Source of the DNA: a virus
DNA: 26,616 bases
IMG/VR virus record: IMGVR_UViG_3300006037_000028
Span: 1-26,616 of that record
Reading direction: 5' to 3' (one strand)
Shown here: piece after piece, positions 1,406 through 11,635 of the stretch
How the letters are laid out: each line of letters starts with the position of its first letter
Numbering within the stretch: the stretch's first letter is position 1
Translations under genes and position numbers: made by a program
Notes under the pieces: model-generated
The model's database searches: none
Seen by the model: the letters and a program-made list of their open reading frames with translations, nothing else
What the model was told of the DNA's origin: nothing

Positions 1406-2779
1406 TCAGCCCACGCCGGGAAGCCGCTTCTGCCCGGTTGCATCCTCTTCCAGCCAGTCGGCAAGCTTGGCAATGTCAATGCCGAACGTCACCTGTTTCT
1501 GCTCTTGCACCTGAACTGTTTCGTAACCGCCGTCGAAGCTCGACATCAAATACATGCGAGCCATGGACAGGTCTTCTTTCTTCTTGCGCTTGATGGAACG
1601 GTAGCTAGTGACAACGCCTTGCTTCTTCGGGGCGCGGAGCAGCTTCACCCGTAAGGCGTCAAAGCTGTAGCCCCTGCCCAGCCTGTCCATGGCTCGCGTC
1701 AGGCCGTTCTGGCATTCGGTGTAGGCATTGGTAATGGGTGTCTCGAAAAACTCCAGAATCTCCTTCTCCCAATTGCCCCAGCAGCGCAGCAAGTCGCTCC
1801 AGTGTTGCCATTGCTCAGGCGGGATGTTCTTTACGAACACCTCGAAGCGCGTCTTGGCCTCGCGCTTGGTCTTCGAGTCATAGACGCTGTAGAACTCTTC
1901 CTTCAAGTCATAGACTACGCCGACCTCCGGGAACATCTCACGCCAGCCATTGAGCTTGTCCCGCTGCCAGTCTTCCAGGTCGTGCTCACGGGTCTTCAGG
2001 ATGTATTTGTCGTGCATCAGCTTGAGCTTTGTGCGCTTGGCGGCGATTTCCTTGCGGATGCGCAGGCGAACCTTATCCACTGCGTCCTCGGCCATTTTCA
2101 GGATGTGAAACTTGTCTGCTACCACCTTGGCGTTCGGGAACAGGTCGTGAATCAGGTGCTTGTAGCGAGCGGTGCAATCCATCGAAACACCCTTGACGGC
2201 ATCACGGTTCGGCATCTGCTCGAAGTAGGCACGAAACGTTTTTGCGGAACAATCCTTCAGGAACTCAATGGCACTGTTGTTTGACAGGTTGGTGATGACG
2301 CCCCGTGCAGCGCCAGCGATGTCCAGTTCGTCGATACCCATGTATTCAGGCTGGGCGAACTTGGTCGTGTCGATGTCGTCCTTGTAGCGGCCATAGAAGA
2401 TGTTGCGGACGGTCTTCTCGTTGATGCCGTATTCGCGGGACAGGTCAGAGAACGAGCGTTCAAGGGCCAACTCGGCAATCCTATCCACAAATCGGGTCGT
2501 CGCCAGGTGGTCGTCATCCACCCACGGGAGAGGATGGAAGAACGTGCCGCCACAGTCCTTGCAGCGGTAGCGTTTCCGAACAAGGTGAATGCAGGTGAAT
2601 CGCGCCTGATGCGGCAAGTCCATCACTTGCTGTTTGTATTGACCATGGCCAATAAAACTCTTGCTGCCGCACAACTGACATTCCTCTGGTCGGCCTTCAC
2701 AACCGGCATGAATGGAAAACGTCGGGCCGTCAGACTCAGTGGCGGTCACAGCAATACCCGGCAGGTCGAGAGGCAGCAT
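1406..2779 (-). CDS. tnpA: ISL3-family DDE transposase
   Basis: A 457-residue transposase for the surrounding element. An N-terminal zinc-binding domain shows two CxxC pairs (C34/C37 and C73/C76), typical of ISL3 transposases. A helix-turn-helix-like stretch follows at about 105-128 (LERSFSDLSREYGINEKTV). The catalytic core has D150 in GIDELDI, D222 in VVADKFHILKM and E355 in NAYTECQNGL, followed by the family's RLGRGYSF segment. The family cuts and pastes DNA between the terminal inverted repeats. The C-terminal 60 residues are polar and somewhat longer than in many relatives. The frame is intact, so the element may still be active. No clear Shine-Dalgarno sequence precedes the ATG. Confidence 0.95.
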   Translation of the reverse strand: MLPLDLPGIAVTATESDGPTFSIHAGCEGRPEECQLCGSKSFIGHGQYKQQVMDLPHQARFTCIHLVRKRYRCKDCGGTFFHPLPWVDDDHLATTRFVDRIAELALERSFSDLSREYGINEKTVRNIFYGRYKDDIDTTKFAQPEYMGIDELDIAGAARGVITNLSNNSAIEFLKDCSAKTFRAYFEQMPNRDAVKGVSMDCTARYKHLIHDLFPNAKVVADKFHILKMAEDAVDKVRLRIRKEIAAKRTKLKLMHDKYILKTREHDLEDWQRDKLNGWREMFPEVGVVYDLKEEFYSVYDSKTKREAKTRFEVFVKNIPPEQWQHWSDLLRCWGNWEKEILEFFETPITNAYTECQNGLTRAMDRLGRGYSFDALRVKLLRAPKKQGVVTSYRSIKRKKKEDLSMARMYLMSSFDGGYETVQVQEQKQVTFGIDIAKLADWLEEDATGQKRLPGVG

Positions 2780-4129: not shown

Positions 4130-4489
4130 ATGACCAACAAAATCACCATCCCAGAACTCGCCGAAGGCGAACGCTACATCGGCGCCAGCGTCGATCCGGA
4201 AGGAAACCTGACGCACGTCATCCTTCTCCCTGGTGAAAAGAAAGCCACCTGGAAAAGCGCCCTCAAGTGGGCGGCCAGCATTGGCGATCTGCCCACGCGC
4301 CTTGAGCAATCGCTCCTGTACGCACATGCCAAGGACGCCTTCGAGCCGGATTACTACTGGTCAAACACGCAGCACGCTTCCAATTCGGGCTGTGCCTGGT
4401 ACCAGTACTTCGGCAATGGCGGCCAGTACTACGACTACGCCGACGACGAGCTCCGGGCCCGTGCCGTCCGCAGATTAATCATTCAGTAA
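4130..4489 (+). CDS. DGR variable protein 1 (C-type-lectin-like, DUF1566-type)
   Basis: A 119-residue protein with no signal peptide. The fold pattern is that of the DUF1566/Lcl-like C-type-lectin domain: PELAEGERYIG at the start, ATWKSALKWAASI, LPTRLEQSLLYA, then YYWSN, AWYQYFGNG and the closing LRARAVRRL. The last third is the variable region (4376-4477), in which only first and second codon bases differ from its two paralogues at 4518 and 5593. DGR targets of this fold display variable side chains on a ligand-binding face, so the protein is inferred to be a binding protein; its ligand is unknown. GGAG precedes the ATG. Unlike phage DGR targets that are tail tips, it carries no virion domain. 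Confidence 0.85.
   Translation: MTNKITIPELAEGERYIGASVDPEGNLTHVILLPGEKKATWKSALKWAASIGDLPTRLEQSLLYAHAKDAFEPDYYWSNTQHASNSGCAWYQYFGNGGQYYDYADDELRARAVRRLIIQ
4376..4477 (+). repeat. DGR variable repeat VR1
   Basis: This aligns without gaps to 5013-5114 and 5845-5946, apart from one codon offset at the 5' limit that I cannot place exactly. From 4385 to 4450, 20 columns vary among the three copies and none is a third codon position; 16 of the 20 have A in at least one copy. The final 27 bases (4451-4477) are identical in all three and GC-rich in the first 20, as expected for the fixed end where mutagenic homing starts. Confidence 0.85.
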
Positions 4490-4517
4490 TTTATCAATTT
4501 CAAATTCGGAGATGACC

Positions 4518-5126
4518 ATGGGCGATCGCATCCTTGAATTAATGCGCAAGCGGTTGGAAAAGTGGGAACTTGAACACCTGCGCGAACTGGCCATTCAACT
4601 TCAGGACCGCCTCGAGCGCGCTGAAGAGGATGCAATCCAGGAACGCACATTCGGCGATCACTGGCATCGTGAAGCTATGTCGATGATTAGCGAACTGTCG
4701 GCAGAAGGCCGCACCATCGGCCTCACGAAGTCCGCTGAAATCCTTGTTTCTGCCCCGCCGACATCAAGCCTCGAAGTCCCCATCCTCAACGAAGGCGAGA
4801 TCTACCTGGGCGCCATCATCTGCGGCGAGAGCGCCCACCGTCATCACACCATCCTGTTGCCAGGCGATGTCGAGAACAAGACATGGAAGCAGGCCATGAA
4901 GTGGGCAGCCGACCAGGGCGGCGACCTGCCGAACCGTGTCGAGCAGGCACTGCTGTTCGCCACGCTGAAGAGCGAGTTCCAGGAAGCGGCCTACTGGTCG
5001 AATTCGCAGCACGCAGTCTTTTCGGACTTTGCCTGGTACCAGAGCTTCGGCAATGGCAGCCAGTACGGCGCCGTCGCCAGCAACGAGCTCCGGGCCCGTG
5101 CCGTCCGCAGATTAATCATTCAGTAA
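4518..5126 (+). CDS. DGR variable protein 2 with helical N-terminal extension
   Basis: A 202-residue protein. Residues 1-75 form long charged helices with heptad-like leucines (ILELMRKRLEKWELEHLREL, QDRLERAEED), probably a coiled coil for assembly. A short linker (PPTSS) leads to a DUF1566-type lectin-like domain: EGEIYLGAIIC, HTILLPGD, TWKQAMKWAADQG, LPNRVEQALLFA, AYWSNSQHAVFSDFAWYQSFGNG and LRARAVRRLIIQ. Its 3' end is variable repeat 2. The start at 4518 is chosen over 4512 because GGAG then sits six bases upstream. The coiled coil could multimerise the display domain or attach it to a partner, which is inference. Confidence 0.85.
   Translation: MGDRILELMRKRLEKWELEHLRELAIQLQDRLERAEEDAIQERTFGDHWHREAMSMISELSAEGRTIGLTKSAEILVSAPPTSSLEVPILNEGEIYLGAIICGESAHRHHTILLPGDVENKTWKQAMKWAADQGGDLPNRVEQALLFATLKSEFQEAAYWSNSQHAVFSDFAWYQSFGNGSQYGAVASNELRARAVRRLIIQ
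5013..5114 (+). repeat. DGR variable repeat VR2
   Basis: Second copy. It shares GTCTTTTCGGACTTTGCC with VR3 exactly, while the codons after TGGTACCAG differ from both other copies only at first and second positions. Variable codons include AGC, GGC, GCC, GTC and AAC, all NNC, consistent with AAC in the template. Confidence 0.85.
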
Positions 5127-5154
5127 TTCAATAATTTCGATTCCGGAGTCAGCC

Positions 5155-5385
5155 ATGAAACGTCCGCTCAATGCCGTTCTGCGTTCCGTCGCGAAGTTCC
5201 AGATGCGTTCTCTCGAGATCAGCCTGCAGGGGAAGCTGGACACCCTGCCCTACGTCACCGACGAAGCAACGCTGGCCTGCATGCGCATCTCGATCCGCCA
5301 GCTGCAGATTGATCTCGCCAAGGCCCGTTCGCGTTACCAGTCGTTTCTCCCGGCCGGCGAACGATTCATCTGGGAAGTGGCGTGA
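5155..5385 (+). CDS. small basic helical protein between variable proteins
   Basis: A 76-residue protein MKRPLNAVLRSVAKF... predicted to be almost entirely helical and basic, with leucines spaced for packing (SLEISLQGKL, ISIRQLQIDLAKARSRYQSF). There is no known motif. GGAG lies six bases before the ATG in a context very like that of variable protein 2. It sits between two DGR targets, so it may be an accessory or chaperone of those proteins. It overlaps the next gene by one base (TGATG). Confidence 0.6.
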   Translation: MKRPLNAVLRSVAKFQMRSLEISLQGKLDTLPYVTDEATLACMRISIRQLQIDLAKARSRYQSFLPAGERFIWEVA

Positions 5386-5522
5386 TGAATACCGGCCACC
5401 ACCTCGCCAGCATGGCAGAGCGCCGCGATCAGTTTGACCGCATGGCCGGCTTGCTTGTCGCCTTCCTGTGCTGCATCGGAACGTTTTCAGCCGGGCTGCT
5501 CACGTGGGCGGTCCTGTGCTGA
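5385..5522 (+). CDS. 45-residue single-pass membrane protein
   Basis: A short protein MNTGHHLASMAERRDQFDRM followed by one hydrophobic span (AGLLVAFLCCIGTFSAGLLTWAVL). The start overlaps the stop of the previous gene (TGATG), the mark of translational coupling. The arginine-containing head before the span suggests a single inner-membrane helix. It is too short for a family call. It could be a holin-like, toxin-like or anchoring peptide acting with the neighbouring variable proteins; none of this is shown by the sequence. Confidence 0.5.
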   Translation: MNTGHHLASMAERRDQFDRMAGLLVAFLCCIGTFSAGLLTWAVLC

Positions 5523-5592
5523 TCGGCCTAGCCATCGCACTGGCTGTGCTCTGTCTGACCAATCTCTTTCTCGACTAATCCAAGGAATCACG

Positions 5593-5955
5593 ATGCAAAC
5601 CATCTCCATGCCAGAACTCGCCGCCGGTGAGACCTACATCGCCACCCTCTTCGATGCGGCCTCCCAGACCGGACAGCACATCATCCTGCTCGATGGCGAC
5701 AACAACAACGCTACCTGGGAAGAGCAGAAATCCTGGGCAACCAGCATCGGCGGGGAGTTGCCGACCCGCTTCGAGCAGGCCCTGCTCTACGCCAAGCACA
5801 AGGATCTGTTCCAGGTCAATTGGTACTGGTCTGGCGAGCAGGACGCAGTCTTTTCGGACTTTGCCTGGTACCAGGTCTTCGGCGATGGCGGCCAGCTCAG
5901 CTACTTCACCTACATCAAGCTCCGGGCCCGTGCCGTCCGCAGATTAGCCATTTAA
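5593..5955 (+). CDS. DGR variable protein 3 (C-type-lectin-like, DUF1566-type)
   Basis: A 120-residue protein MQTISMPELAAGETYIATL..., a paralogue of the genes at 4130 and 4518: HIILLDGD, TWEEQKSWATSIG, LPTRFEQALLYA, WYWSGEQDAVFSDFAWYQVFGDG, and the fixed LRARAVRRL end. The frame is open further upstream to 5434, but AAGGA about six bases before the ATG at 5593 and the match to the paralogues fix this start. It has no signal peptide. It lies directly before the Avd gene, the classical order in DGR cassettes. The last five codons (TTA GCC ATT TAA) differ from those in the other two genes after the fixed block. Confidence 0.85.
   Translation: MQTISMPELAAGETYIATLFDAASQTGQHIILLDGDNNNATWEEQKSWATSIGGELPTRFEQALLYAKHKDLFQVNWYWSGEQDAVFSDFAWYQVFGDGGQLSYFTYIKLRARAVRRLAI
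5845..5946 (+). repeat. DGR variable repeat VR3
   Basis: Third copy. In this one GAG of the other copies is AAG, and GCC is ACC, giving the A expected in a template at those sites. The 27-base fixed block (5920-5946) is identical to that of VR1 and VR2. Confidence 0.85.
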
Positions 5956-5981
5956 CCATTTAATTATTGCTTTTCATCAGC

Positions 5982-6332
5982 ATGGCCCAAACCACCCACC
6001 TGCCGATTTACAAGGTTGCCTACGATCTGCTTGGCCTGGTCACCGACTTGGTCAGGAACATGCCGCGCGACTCGAAGCAAACGATCGGCATCAAGATCAA
6101 CCAGGAGTGCGTCGAGATCGTCGTTCTGATCTTCCGCGCCAACTGCGCCCGTGACAAGGCACCGCACCTGGAAGACCTGATCGAGCACCTGCAAGTCATC
6201 GAACTGCTGCTGCGCCTGTCGCGAGACAAGCGCCTGATCTCGACCAAGGGCTATGCCCAGGCCATCGAGCTAACCGGCAGTATCGGCAAGGCAGACCTTA
6301 CCAAAACCTATCGCAGGAGTATTTCAGCATGA
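5982..6332 (+). CDS. avd: Avd-type DGR accessory protein (four-helix bundle)
   Basis: A 116-residue, mostly helical basic protein. The order of signatures matches the bAvd/four-helix-bundle family: LPIYKVAYDLLGLVTDLVRNMPRDSK at the start, TIGIKINQECVEIVVLIFRANCARDK in helix 2, LEDLIEHLQVIELLLRLSRD in helix 3 and KRLISTKGYAQAIELTGSIGK in helix 4. In known DGRs Avd forms a pentameric barrel that binds the reverse transcriptase and template RNA and is required for mutagenic homing. Here it follows the third variable protein, but the reverse transcriptase normally nearby is missing. The start at 5982 is preferred over a TTG at 5967; neither has a strong ribosome binding site, so it is probably coupled to upstream translation. 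It overlaps the next gene by ATGA. Confidence 0.85.
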   Translation: MAQTTHLPIYKVAYDLLGLVTDLVRNMPRDSKQTIGIKINQECVEIVVLIFRANCARDKAPHLEDLIEHLQVIELLLRLSRDKRLISTKGYAQAIELTGSIGKADLTKTYRRSISA

Positions 6333-6709
6333 ATGTTGCAAGCGAAACCCAAGCCGTGAGTGGGGAAGATAACCTCGGCAGCGGCACATCGGACGACCTC
6401 CGTAATTTGTACCAACAGGACGAGGGTGCCGCCTTCGTTGAGCAGCCAAAGCCGGATGAATTGCCGGCCGAGGCTTGCTCCGATGTCGCCCGGACTATGA
6501 ACACCAGGCCGCTGGAAAATTATGTCGCTCGATGCGACGGAGGCAACTGCCCGAGCAAGAAGAACTGCCGGCGCTATACCGAGCGGCTCAGCGACGATTT
6601 GTACATGCTCCGTGCCGCTCTCTGGCTGCGCCGGGATGCCGGCGCCAGCGCCTGCGACATGGTGATCTGGATCGACCGTGTAACCACCTTCAAGGACGCC
6701 ACATTATGA
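6329..6709 (+). CDS. hypothetical early protein with Cys-rich segment
   Basis: A 126-residue protein. The first 60 residues are acidic and probably disordered; then comes a small Cys cluster (CDGGNCPSKKNCRRY), which may bind a metal, followed by a helix-rich tail (RLSDDLYMLRAALWLRRDAG, ACDMVIWIDRVTTF). There is no family name. It is coupled to Avd upstream (ATGA) and to the next gene downstream (ATGA). It is not a reverse transcriptase: there is no YxDD box and it is far too short. Confidence 0.6.
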   Translation: MNVASETQAVSGEDNLGSGTSDDLRNLYQQDEGAAFVEQPKPDELPAEACSDVARTMNTRPLENYVARCDGGNCPSKKNCRRYTERLSDDLYMLRAALWLRRDAGASACDMVIWIDRVTTFKDATL

Positions 6710-9943: not shown

Positions 9944-11635
9944 ATGCAAATGAATCTCGACATCCACGGCGAGCTGATCATCGATAACTTTGCCGGCGGC
10001 GGTGGTGCTTCAACGGGAATCGAGCTAGCGCTCGGTCGTCGCGTCGATATTGCCATCGACCATGATCCGGAGGCGGTCGCCATGCACACTGCGAACCATC
10101 CGGAGACGAAGCACTACTGCGAGAGCGTCTGGGAAATCGACCCGCGCGAAGTAACCCAGGGTAGGCCTGTCGCGCTGGTCTGGCTTTCTCCCGACTGCAA
10201 GCACTTCAGCAAGGCCAAGGGTGGCAAGCCCGTCGAGAAGAAGATTCGCGGCCTCGCCTGGGTTGCGCTGCGCTGGGCGGCTGTCGCCAAGCCGCGTGTG
10301 ATCATGCTCGAGAACGTCGAAGAGTTTCGCACATGGGGCCCGCTGGTGATCGACGGCGAAGGCAACACCAGGCCATGCCCGAAGAACAAGGGCAGGACGT
10401 TCAATTCGTTCTGCAATGCCCTGAGAGCCCAGGGGTATCAAATCGAGCATCGCGAGCTTCGTGCCTGCGACTATGGCACGCCGACGATCCGCAAGCGCCT
10501 GTTCCTGATCGCCCGCCGCGATGGACAGCCAATTGTCTGGCCAGCGCCGACGCACGGCGACCCGCGAAACATCGCCACCAAGGCCAATAAGCTGAAGCCG
10601 TGGCGCACCGCTGCTGAGTGCATTGACTTCACCGCGCCATGCCCGTCAATCTTTGAGCGCACCCGTCCGCTGGCCGACGCCACACTTCGCCGGATCGCCA
10701 AGGGCATCATGCGCTACGTTGTGAATGCGGCAGAGCCGTTCATCGTGAATACGGCGAATAGCAAGACCACCGGCAGAGGGCCCAACGCTTGGGATATTAA
10801 CGAGCCGACGCGCACAATAACTTCAGCGCCCGGATTCGCTGTTGTCGCACCAGTCCTGACCGAGCATGCCAACGCATCGACGCCCCGCTGCATGCCAGCC
10901 GACGAACCGCTGCGCACGATCTTAGCCCAGACTAAGGGCGGGCACCACGCCCTGGTTACCGCCTTCATGGCGAAGCACTACGGCGGCGTTGTCGGCCACA
11001 GCCTACAAGGCGAACCGCTGCACACCGTCACCAGCTCAGACCATAACAGCCTGGTCACCGCCAACCTGATTCACATGGGCCACGGCGAAGGCAAGGACGG
11101 AAGCAAGCGATTCAGCCACGGCATTCGTGACATTGAACAACCGATCAATACCATCACGGCCAACGGTGCGACCGCTGGCATCGTGACGAGCAACCTGGTC
11201 AAGATGCGCGGCACCAGCCAGGACGGCCAGCCAATCGACGAGCATCTGCACACAGTAAGCGCCCAGGGGACGCACCACGCCGAGGTCCGCGCCTTCCTTG
11301 TGAAATATTACGGATCAGACCAAGACCCACGCCTCGAGGAACCGTTGCACACGGTAACCACTAAGGACCGCTACGGCCTGGTAACTGTCGCCGGCGATGA
11401 ATACCAGATCGCCGACATCGGCCTGCGCATGCTGGCCCCACGTGAGCTATTCAAGGCCCAAGGATTCCCCGACAGCTACGTCATGGACTGGGGAATCGAT
11501 CACAACGGACAGCGCATTAACCTGACCAAAACAGCCCAGATTCGCATGTGCGGCAACAGCGTTTGTCCGCCACTGGCTGCGGCGCTTGTCCGGTCGAATC
11601 TTTCTGAACTGGCCGTCGCCAGGAGAGCGGCATGA
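9944..11635 (+). CDS. DNA (cytosine-5) methyltransferase
   Basis: A 563-residue enzyme that transfers a methyl group from S-adenosylmethionine to cytosine C5. Motif I is FAGGGGAS (residues 16-23), the catalytic motif IV is SPDCKHFS with Cys85 (a variant of the usual PCQ), motif VI is ENVEEF (123-128), motif VIII lies in TPTIRKRLFLIA, and motif X is CGNSVCPPLA near the C terminus. Between VIII and X is an unusually long target-recognition region built of about six repeats of 34-42 residues, each with a core like EPLHTVT and a later LVT or LVK. No restriction partner is seen, so it is an orphan phage methyltransferase, probably protecting phage DNA from host restriction. Confidence 0.92.
   Translation: MQMNLDIHGELIIDNFAGGGGASTGIELALGRRVDIAIDHDPEAVAMHTANHPETKHYCESVWEIDPREVTQGRPVALVWLSPDCKHFSKAKGGKPVEKKIRGLAWVALRWAAVAKPRVIMLENVEEFRTWGPLVIDGEGNTRPCPKNKGRTFNSFCNALRAQGYQIEHRELRACDYGTPTIRKRLFLIARRDGQPIVWPAPTHGDPRNIATKANKLKPWRTAAECIDFTAPCPSIFERTRPLADATLRRIAKGIMRYVVNAAEPFIVNTANSKTTGRGPNAWDINEPTRTITSAPGFAVVAPVLTEHANASTPRCMPADEPLRTILAQTKGGHHALVTAFMAKHYGGVVGHSLQGEPLHTVTSSDHNSLVTANLIHMGHGEGKDGSKRFSHGIRDIEQPINTITANGATAGIVTSNLVKMRGTSQDGQPIDEHLHTVSAQGTHHAEVRAFLVKYYGSDQDPRLEEPLHTVTTKDRYGLVTVAGDEYQIADIGLRMLAPRELFKAQGFPDSYVMDWGIDHNGQRINLTKTAQIRMCGNSVCPPLAAALVRSNLSELAVARRAA

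Follow-up and report, generated by a model that had tools for sequence, protein, structure and literature searches.

What becomes of diversified genes once the machinery that diversified them is gone? The question is raised by viral record IMGVR_UViG_3300006037_000028, analysed over its positions 1 to 26,616 (26,616 nucleotides; the window), where three paralogous genes end in variable repeats (VRs) of the kind made by a diversity-generating retroelement (DGR) and neither a template repeat nor a reverse transcriptase (RT) is found. Very probably a DGR made this variation, its engine of template and RT was deleted, and the three targets are now an orphaned family whose variants are inherited unchanged. 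The place of the loss is marked by a scar, in which the accessory gene avd runs in frame into the last codons of rt.

Three variable repeats carry the signature of adenine mutagenesis

The 3' ends of the three target genes align without gaps at 4376–4477 (VR1), 5013–5114 (VR2) and 5845–5946 (VR3), as a first-pass annotation of this DNA had proposed. Between 4385 and 4450 of VR1 the alignment has 20 variable columns, of which 11 are first codon positions, 9 are second positions and none is a third; A is present in at least one copy at 16 of them, the exceptions being 4392, 4427, 4433 and 4436. No difference separates the three copies from 4449 to 4477. Upstream the genes diverge freely, third positions included, with 69 of the 120 columns before 4376 variable and 27 of these at third positions. 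Third positions thus vary at 0 of 22 sites in 4385–4450 versus 27 of 40 upstream (Fisher p = 6e-8). Seven variable codons of VR1 are all TAC or GAC, as reported in the first pass; its further claim, that every variable codon is one step from AAC, fails for GGC, GCC, GTC, CTC and TTC, because both adenines of AAC must change to reach them.

The orthologue of target 2 in another contig (L023; loci of relatives are given here as L numbers), 88.8% identical over 815 bp, repeats the pattern. Of the 75 bases compared inside VR2, 13 differ from the window, and 12 of these differences are at codon positions 1–2; one (5054, T/C) falls on a third codon position and counts against the pattern. Of the 276 outside VR2, 16 differ, with 12 of the differences at position 3 (contrast p = 5e-4).

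At the protein level, the domains of the other two targets are 52 and 59% identical to target 1 overall, and all three targets match PHROG 4245, which is annotated as of unknown function. Targets 1 and 2 score 29.2 and 19.7 bits with Lcl_C (PF07603; gathering cut-off 34.9), and the Pfam search returned no Lcl_C match for target 3. The predicted structure of target 1 has a mean predicted local distance difference test score (pLDDT) of 96.5. Its top match in the PDB is the C-terminal domain of Legionella Lcl (8q4e; E 1.7e-4), followed by C-type lectins with weaker E values. The C-type-lectin-like fold suspected earlier is therefore predicted for target 1, with the VR at its C terminus.

Template and reverse transcriptase are missing from the available sequence

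An ungapped scan of both strands with the 71 fixed VR columns found no template in the window, the best site outside the VRs matching 36 of 71. The window likewise gave no match to RVT_1 (PF00078) and no RT-15 RNA (Rfam RF03018). A second contig, G002 (loci L013, L296 and L297), aligns with the window across 21.6 kb with 5 mismatches, none of them in VR2 or VR3, the VRs that it covers, and extends 10.1 kb past the window's right end. G002 gave neither a template nor an RVT_1 match, and a search with two RT queries of two stretches that cover the rest of G002 and of a third stretch reached a best E of 0.25. Hence the idea that a three-target DGR cassette is present is not supported, in the window or in the longer G002.

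The 29-mer of the constant 3' part of the VR occurs exactly in only two contigs of IMG/VR, at target genes and at no template. One scan of genome contigs returned two weak matches (L020 and L021) and no host, and a plasmid search with target 2 as sole query returned no match. The fixed VR bases are free of drift among the three copies (71 of 71). Compared with a DGR complete in cis, the locus has the VR pattern, a lectin-fold target and Avd, and lacks the template and the RT. It does correspond to a degenerate (orphaned) DGR locus as that term is used in PMC10907252.

Avd ends in the C terminus of the lost reverse transcriptase

Relatives of the targets occur in Burkholderia phage Magia (MT701587.1), Shewanella phage vB_Sb_QDWS (OK094664.1), Pseudomonas phage Cruim01 (PP179333.1) and IMG/VR contigs. 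The DGRs of these three phages are complete, with several small lectin-fold targets, Avd, template and RT in that order; that of Magia was remarked by its authors as a potential DGR (PMC7883833). Their target proteins are at most 53% and their Avd at most 67% identical to those of the window, which differs in having no template and no RT, and an Avd that ends in an RT tail.

The accessory gene avd, which the first-pass annotation of the cassette does not name, is present. The open reading frame (ORF) 5982–6332 consists of Avd residues 1–103 joined in frame to ADLTKTYRRSISA. Its Avd part matches bAvd (PF22296) with 47.3 bits (cut-off 40) over residues 14–103 and is 67% identical to the QDWS protein over 1–103. 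In the window SIGK is followed by ADLTKTYRRSISA and a stop, whereas seven aligned intact relatives continue with Q and, in most, ANGW. The first nine residues of the added segment, ADLTKTYRR, are the exact RT C terminus in three intact loci with two distinct sequences. The motif [TR]K[TA][YF] lies in the last 40 residues of 177 of the 220 RTs of fetched loci, and TK[TA][YF]R occurs a single time in the six frames of the window, at the RT tail. Aligned with 160 distinct RT tails, the 13 residues score 50, which none of 300 shuffles reached. Moreover, the fusion overlaps the gene after it in the way the Magia RT does (14346/14349 of L005), and G002 carries the same scar. From this scar, which links Avd to the RT C terminus, we conclude that the diversifying half of the element was deleted.

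The intact locus L156 suggests how. There, both the end of avd (GGCAAG) and that of rt (ATCAAGGCCGACCTTACC) contain CAAG, and a deletion between the two CAAG repeats would take out 1394 bp and join the frames as in the window. In a model of the Avd fusion four helices are kept, with a mean pLDDT of 85.9 that is low at both ends.

Templates of relatives account for the variable columns

We looked for templates near the gap between Avd and RT, with no requirement for A content, in 210 loci that have Avd together with a long RT match and were not deduplicated. Of these, 204 (124 distinct sequences) contain a stretch that agrees with the fixed VR bases at 42 or more of 71 positions; in the remaining six the agreement is 37–41. 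In these templates A fills 78% of the variable and 17% of the fixed columns of the window. They have 28 A-majority columns, and 17 of these are among the window's 20 (p = 1e-8, with columns treated as independent); choosing templates by A content instead, which is circular, gives the same 17-column overlap. Among the best is that of L266, which matches the fixed bases at 63 of 71 and has A in 19 of the 20 variable columns. In 302 template–VR pairs of relatives, where templates were told from VRs by A content, 44% of A versus 1.3% of non-A positions differ. The earlier proposal of one Asn-rich (AAC) template behind all three VRs is upheld in that this template family explains the variable columns, and VR pattern and relatives' templates together support a DGR origin of the variation. 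It had also been put forward that such an origin would fall if the genome held no adenine-rich template; the available sequence indeed holds none, but the origin is not thereby refuted, because the scar and the relatives' templates account for the absence.

RT-15 lies directly 5' of the template, after avd, in L266 (5400–5591), L053 (1439–1631) and L156 (5049–5231). It also occurs in L030 (5099–5281), L087 (6335–6529) and L182 (99–290), which keep avd and the RT start, and was searched for and not found in L027, L012, L017, L256, L010, L238, L282 and L279. From its place before the template, RT-15 seems to be the leader of the template RNA, and it may be the leader or 5' part of the template RNA of this DGR; its absence from the window would then be what a joint deletion of template and leader should produce. 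A single literature search returned no paper that names both RT-15 and DGR.

Loss of the engine recurs among relatives

A census of relatives was confined to deduplicated loci that had not been found via RT and had at least 2.2 kb of sequence beyond the anchor, which excluded 55 rows as too short. The sample is non-random and its counts hold among the matches listed. A locus was said to have an RT when the match spanned at least 280 residues, so that frameshifted RTs (L057 and L072) count as present. An RT directly follows Avd in 101 of 109 Avd-anchored loci. The other eight keep Avd and have lost the RT: L013 (the window's phage), L017, L027, L030, L087, L182, L238 and L256. Four more cassettes are decapitated and lack Avd (L010, L012, L279 and L282), giving 12 decapitated cassettes versus 101 with an RT. 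Nine lone targets with no Avd or RT nearby (L015, L019, L229, L239, L241, L244, L264, L271 and L277) were not counted as decapitated, since remote targets may be among them; for L241 and L244 an RT is encoded elsewhere in the record.

Of 50 records carrying the VR motif, taken whole and at least 20 kb long, 41 encode an RT. Two of the nine without one end within 150 bases of the motif (L219, 144 left; L224, 15 left), three hold broken cassettes (L182, L256 and L232) and four hold lone targets (L229 and L239, with L211 and L245 so classed in the stretches read). In the record of L232 (L300), decapitated and outside the census, Avd breaks off near residue 98 and neither an RT nor an RT tail follows.

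The losses take several forms. In-frame runs into an RT tail are found in the window (from Avd residue 103), in L238 (from about Avd residue 80) and in L282 (from the VR end of the last target). Each of these tails beats 300 of 300 shuffles, and that of L238 is nearly identical to the tail of an intact RT. A foreign ORF with the RT C terminus close behind it is present in L012, L017, L027, L279 and Pseudomonas phage vB_PaeS-D14O, and in L010 and L256 a foreign ORF comes after the targets or an Avd stub, with no RT tail found. The RT start is all that remains of rt in L030, L087 and L182.

It is possible, if rather unlikely, that decapitation is a regular end state and not random decay, reached by in-frame deletion (window, L238 and L282) or by foreign ORFs replacing template and RT (L010, L012, L027, L279, L017, L256 and D14O). 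Template and RT would be removed and the targets kept, a successful set of variants being locked or passed to a helper acting in trans.

That all seven foreign ORFs are HNH proteins was considered and rejected: Pfam finds HNH_3 in those of L010, L012, L027 and L279 and in none of those of L017, L256 and D14O. The latter three are related to one another and form one family with no Pfam match, which may resemble small phage HNH proteins. Among 143 distinct intact RT loci, none has a match to the seven ORF queries within 1.5 kb upstream of the RT and 14 have one downstream, and 5 of an initial 9 RT-less cassettes have such a match; the resulting p = 2e-7 is not relied on, since five of the seven queries come from RT-less cassettes and the slot is short in intact loci. 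Of the 101 census loci with an RT, 3 have a query match no more than 1.5 kb after the anchor, among the matches listed.

Two side observations concern RT-less cassettes. In L010 the second of three targets (10385–10834) has an internal stop codon, which fits decay after the loss. Matches to C4 antisense RNA, and in L010 to isrK as well, lie near the place of the lost RT in L010 (11825–12033 and 16484–16566) and L017 (2981–3065).

A proposed history and its rivals

We propose that the ancestor was of the Magia, QDWS and Cruim01 type, with targets, avd, RT-15 RNA and template repeat, and rt in that order. Its RT would have copied an Asn-rich (AAC) template, placing random bases at template adenines, and the complementary DNA would have overwritten three paralogous lectin-fold genes at their 3' ends, creating the present variation. 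Later, a stretch of about 1.4 kb with template and RT would have been deleted, the probable endpoints being CAAG repeats in avd and close to the rt end; this would have fused Avd(1–103) in frame to the last 13 rt codons, with the overlap with the next gene retained. The frame may have been kept because that gene is translationally coupled. With no template or RT in cis, the three variants should be inherited as ordinary genes, and they are probably frozen unless helped in trans.

Several points weigh against this history. The Avd part misses the cut-off of NF033474 (50.9 bits against 80; Magia's own Avd scores 53), and targets 1 and 2 are both below the cut-off of Lcl_C. The CAAG microhomology is taken from the relative L156 and not from the window's ancestor. 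The identity of VR2 and VR3 between the window and G002 tells little about activity, because contigs with only 5 differences in 21.6 kb are too close. The window, finally, is a linear record and may be a fragment, so that an unlinked RT is possible.

The strongest rival, which we nevertheless consider improbable, makes the phage a non-autonomous client whose targets are still diversified in trans by a helper DGR of the host or of another prophage, perhaps with a working Avd fusion. Help in trans is known for bacterial DGRs (PMC10907252, PMC3521204), and in Thiohalocapsa loci without machinery of their own are diversified in this way (PMC10907252). The four helices that the Avd fusion is predicted to keep would make a role in trans possible, and the constant VR bases show no drift; a recent deletion, however, accounts for the absent drift equally well, and in IMG/VR the constant 29-mer is found at target genes of two contigs and at no template. 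That template and RT lie in an unsequenced part of the phage is very unlikely: the window and G002 are linear and possibly fragments, but neither matches RVT_1, and the remnant sits exactly where the RT follows Avd in nearly all Avd-anchored census loci.

We give hardly any credence to two further readings. That the assembly wrongly left out template and RT is conceivable in so far as template and VRs are near-repeats able to mislead assemblers. The junction, however, links avd to the rt end and not a VR to a template, it recurs in G002 (which may come from the same sample), and L238 and L282 carry similar but different fusions. Equally implausible is that the genes are ordinary paralogues shaped by diversifying selection and 3'-end gene conversion with no DGR involved. 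Diversifying selection would favour codon positions 1 and 2 too, but it predicts neither AAC templates in relatives with A at the variable columns, nor an adjacent Avd, nor an RT tail, and it is already contradicted by the relatives' templates and the template–VR pairs.

Relation to known systems

In the DGR of Bordetella phage BPP-1, adenine mutagenesis diversifies a C-type-lectin-fold target with the help of Avd and RT, and this target is a tail protein. Unlike BPP-1, the window has three stand-alone small target genes outside the structural region. The RT of BPP-1 is 32% identical to the Magia-type RT, and 3' of the window's VRs we found palindromes only and no hairpin with separate arms. 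VR-bearing targets that lack an intact RT or template of their own have been described in Thiohalocapsa PB-PSB1, Pseudogulbenkiania NH8B and Anabaena PCC 7120 (PMC10907252, PMC3521204, PMC7517822). Those loci are chromosomal, whereas the window is phage DNA and bears a scar where the avd frame continues into the RT C terminus.

DGRs, multi-target DGRs and degenerate loci are thus already known. New, within the literature searched, are the phage Avd–RT-tail scar and the recurrent loss within one family, in some cases with an endonuclease gene replacing template and RT; neither an Avd–RT-tail fusion nor the replacement of a DGR RT by an endonuclease gene was described there, most subscription journals being outside that search. 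DGRs are usually detected via the RT, and RT-less targets are therefore easily overlooked. With a scar that identifies the lost enzyme, the fate of diversified genes after loss of the engine becomes countable, and there are clean test cases for whether orphan targets are retained for their variants and whether helpers work on them in trans. Removal of the machinery after selection of a good variant has been proposed for a cyanobacterial target (PMC7517822).

Features of the locus and other genes

Table 1. Positions of the targets, repeats and scar in the window, and of foreign ORFs in relatives
Feature	Position (strand)	Description	Basis
Target 1	4130–4489 (+)	119 residues; small lectin-fold protein	Lcl_C below cut-off; PHROG 4245; structure model
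VR1 with constant 3' part	4385–4475 (+)		Column table of the three copies
Target 2	4512–5126 (+)	204 residues; target domain begins near 4760, preceded by an N-terminal extension	
VR2	5022–5112 (+)		Column table; L023 orthologue differences at codon positions 1–2
Target 3	5593–5955 (+)	120 residues	PHROG 4245; no Lcl_C match
VR3	5854–5944 (+)		Column table
avd, residues 1–103	5982–6290 (+)	Relatives about 15 residues longer	PF22296
CAAG at deletion junction	6287–6290 (+)	Putative microhomology	Comparison with intact L156
Last 13 codons and stop of lost rt	6291–6332 (+)	ADLTKTYRRSISA, in frame with avd	RT-tail match
Next gene	6329–6709 (+)	ATG overlaps the stop of the fusion	
HNH_3 ORF, L012	10853–11448	In template/RT slot	Pfam
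HNH_3 ORF, L027	6371–7020	In template/RT slot	Pfam
HNH_3 ORF, L279	2804–2218 (-)	In template/RT slot	Pfam
HNH_3 ORF, L010	11334–11921	In template/RT slot	Pfam
Related ORF, L017	3097–3725	In template/RT slot	
Related ORF, L256	7628–8065	In template/RT slot	
Related ORF, L299 (vB_PaeS-D14O)	5467–6172	In template/RT slot	

Three other genes of the window were recorded in passing. An ISL3-family transposase (1406–2779, minus strand) lies upstream of the targets. A polysaccharide deacetylase-like protein (PF01522; 25471–26610, minus strand) adjoins the capsid gene. A C5 DNA methyltransferase (PF00145) is encoded at 9944–11635 on the plus strand, and its middle part seems by eye to repeat a motif of the EPLHTVT type.

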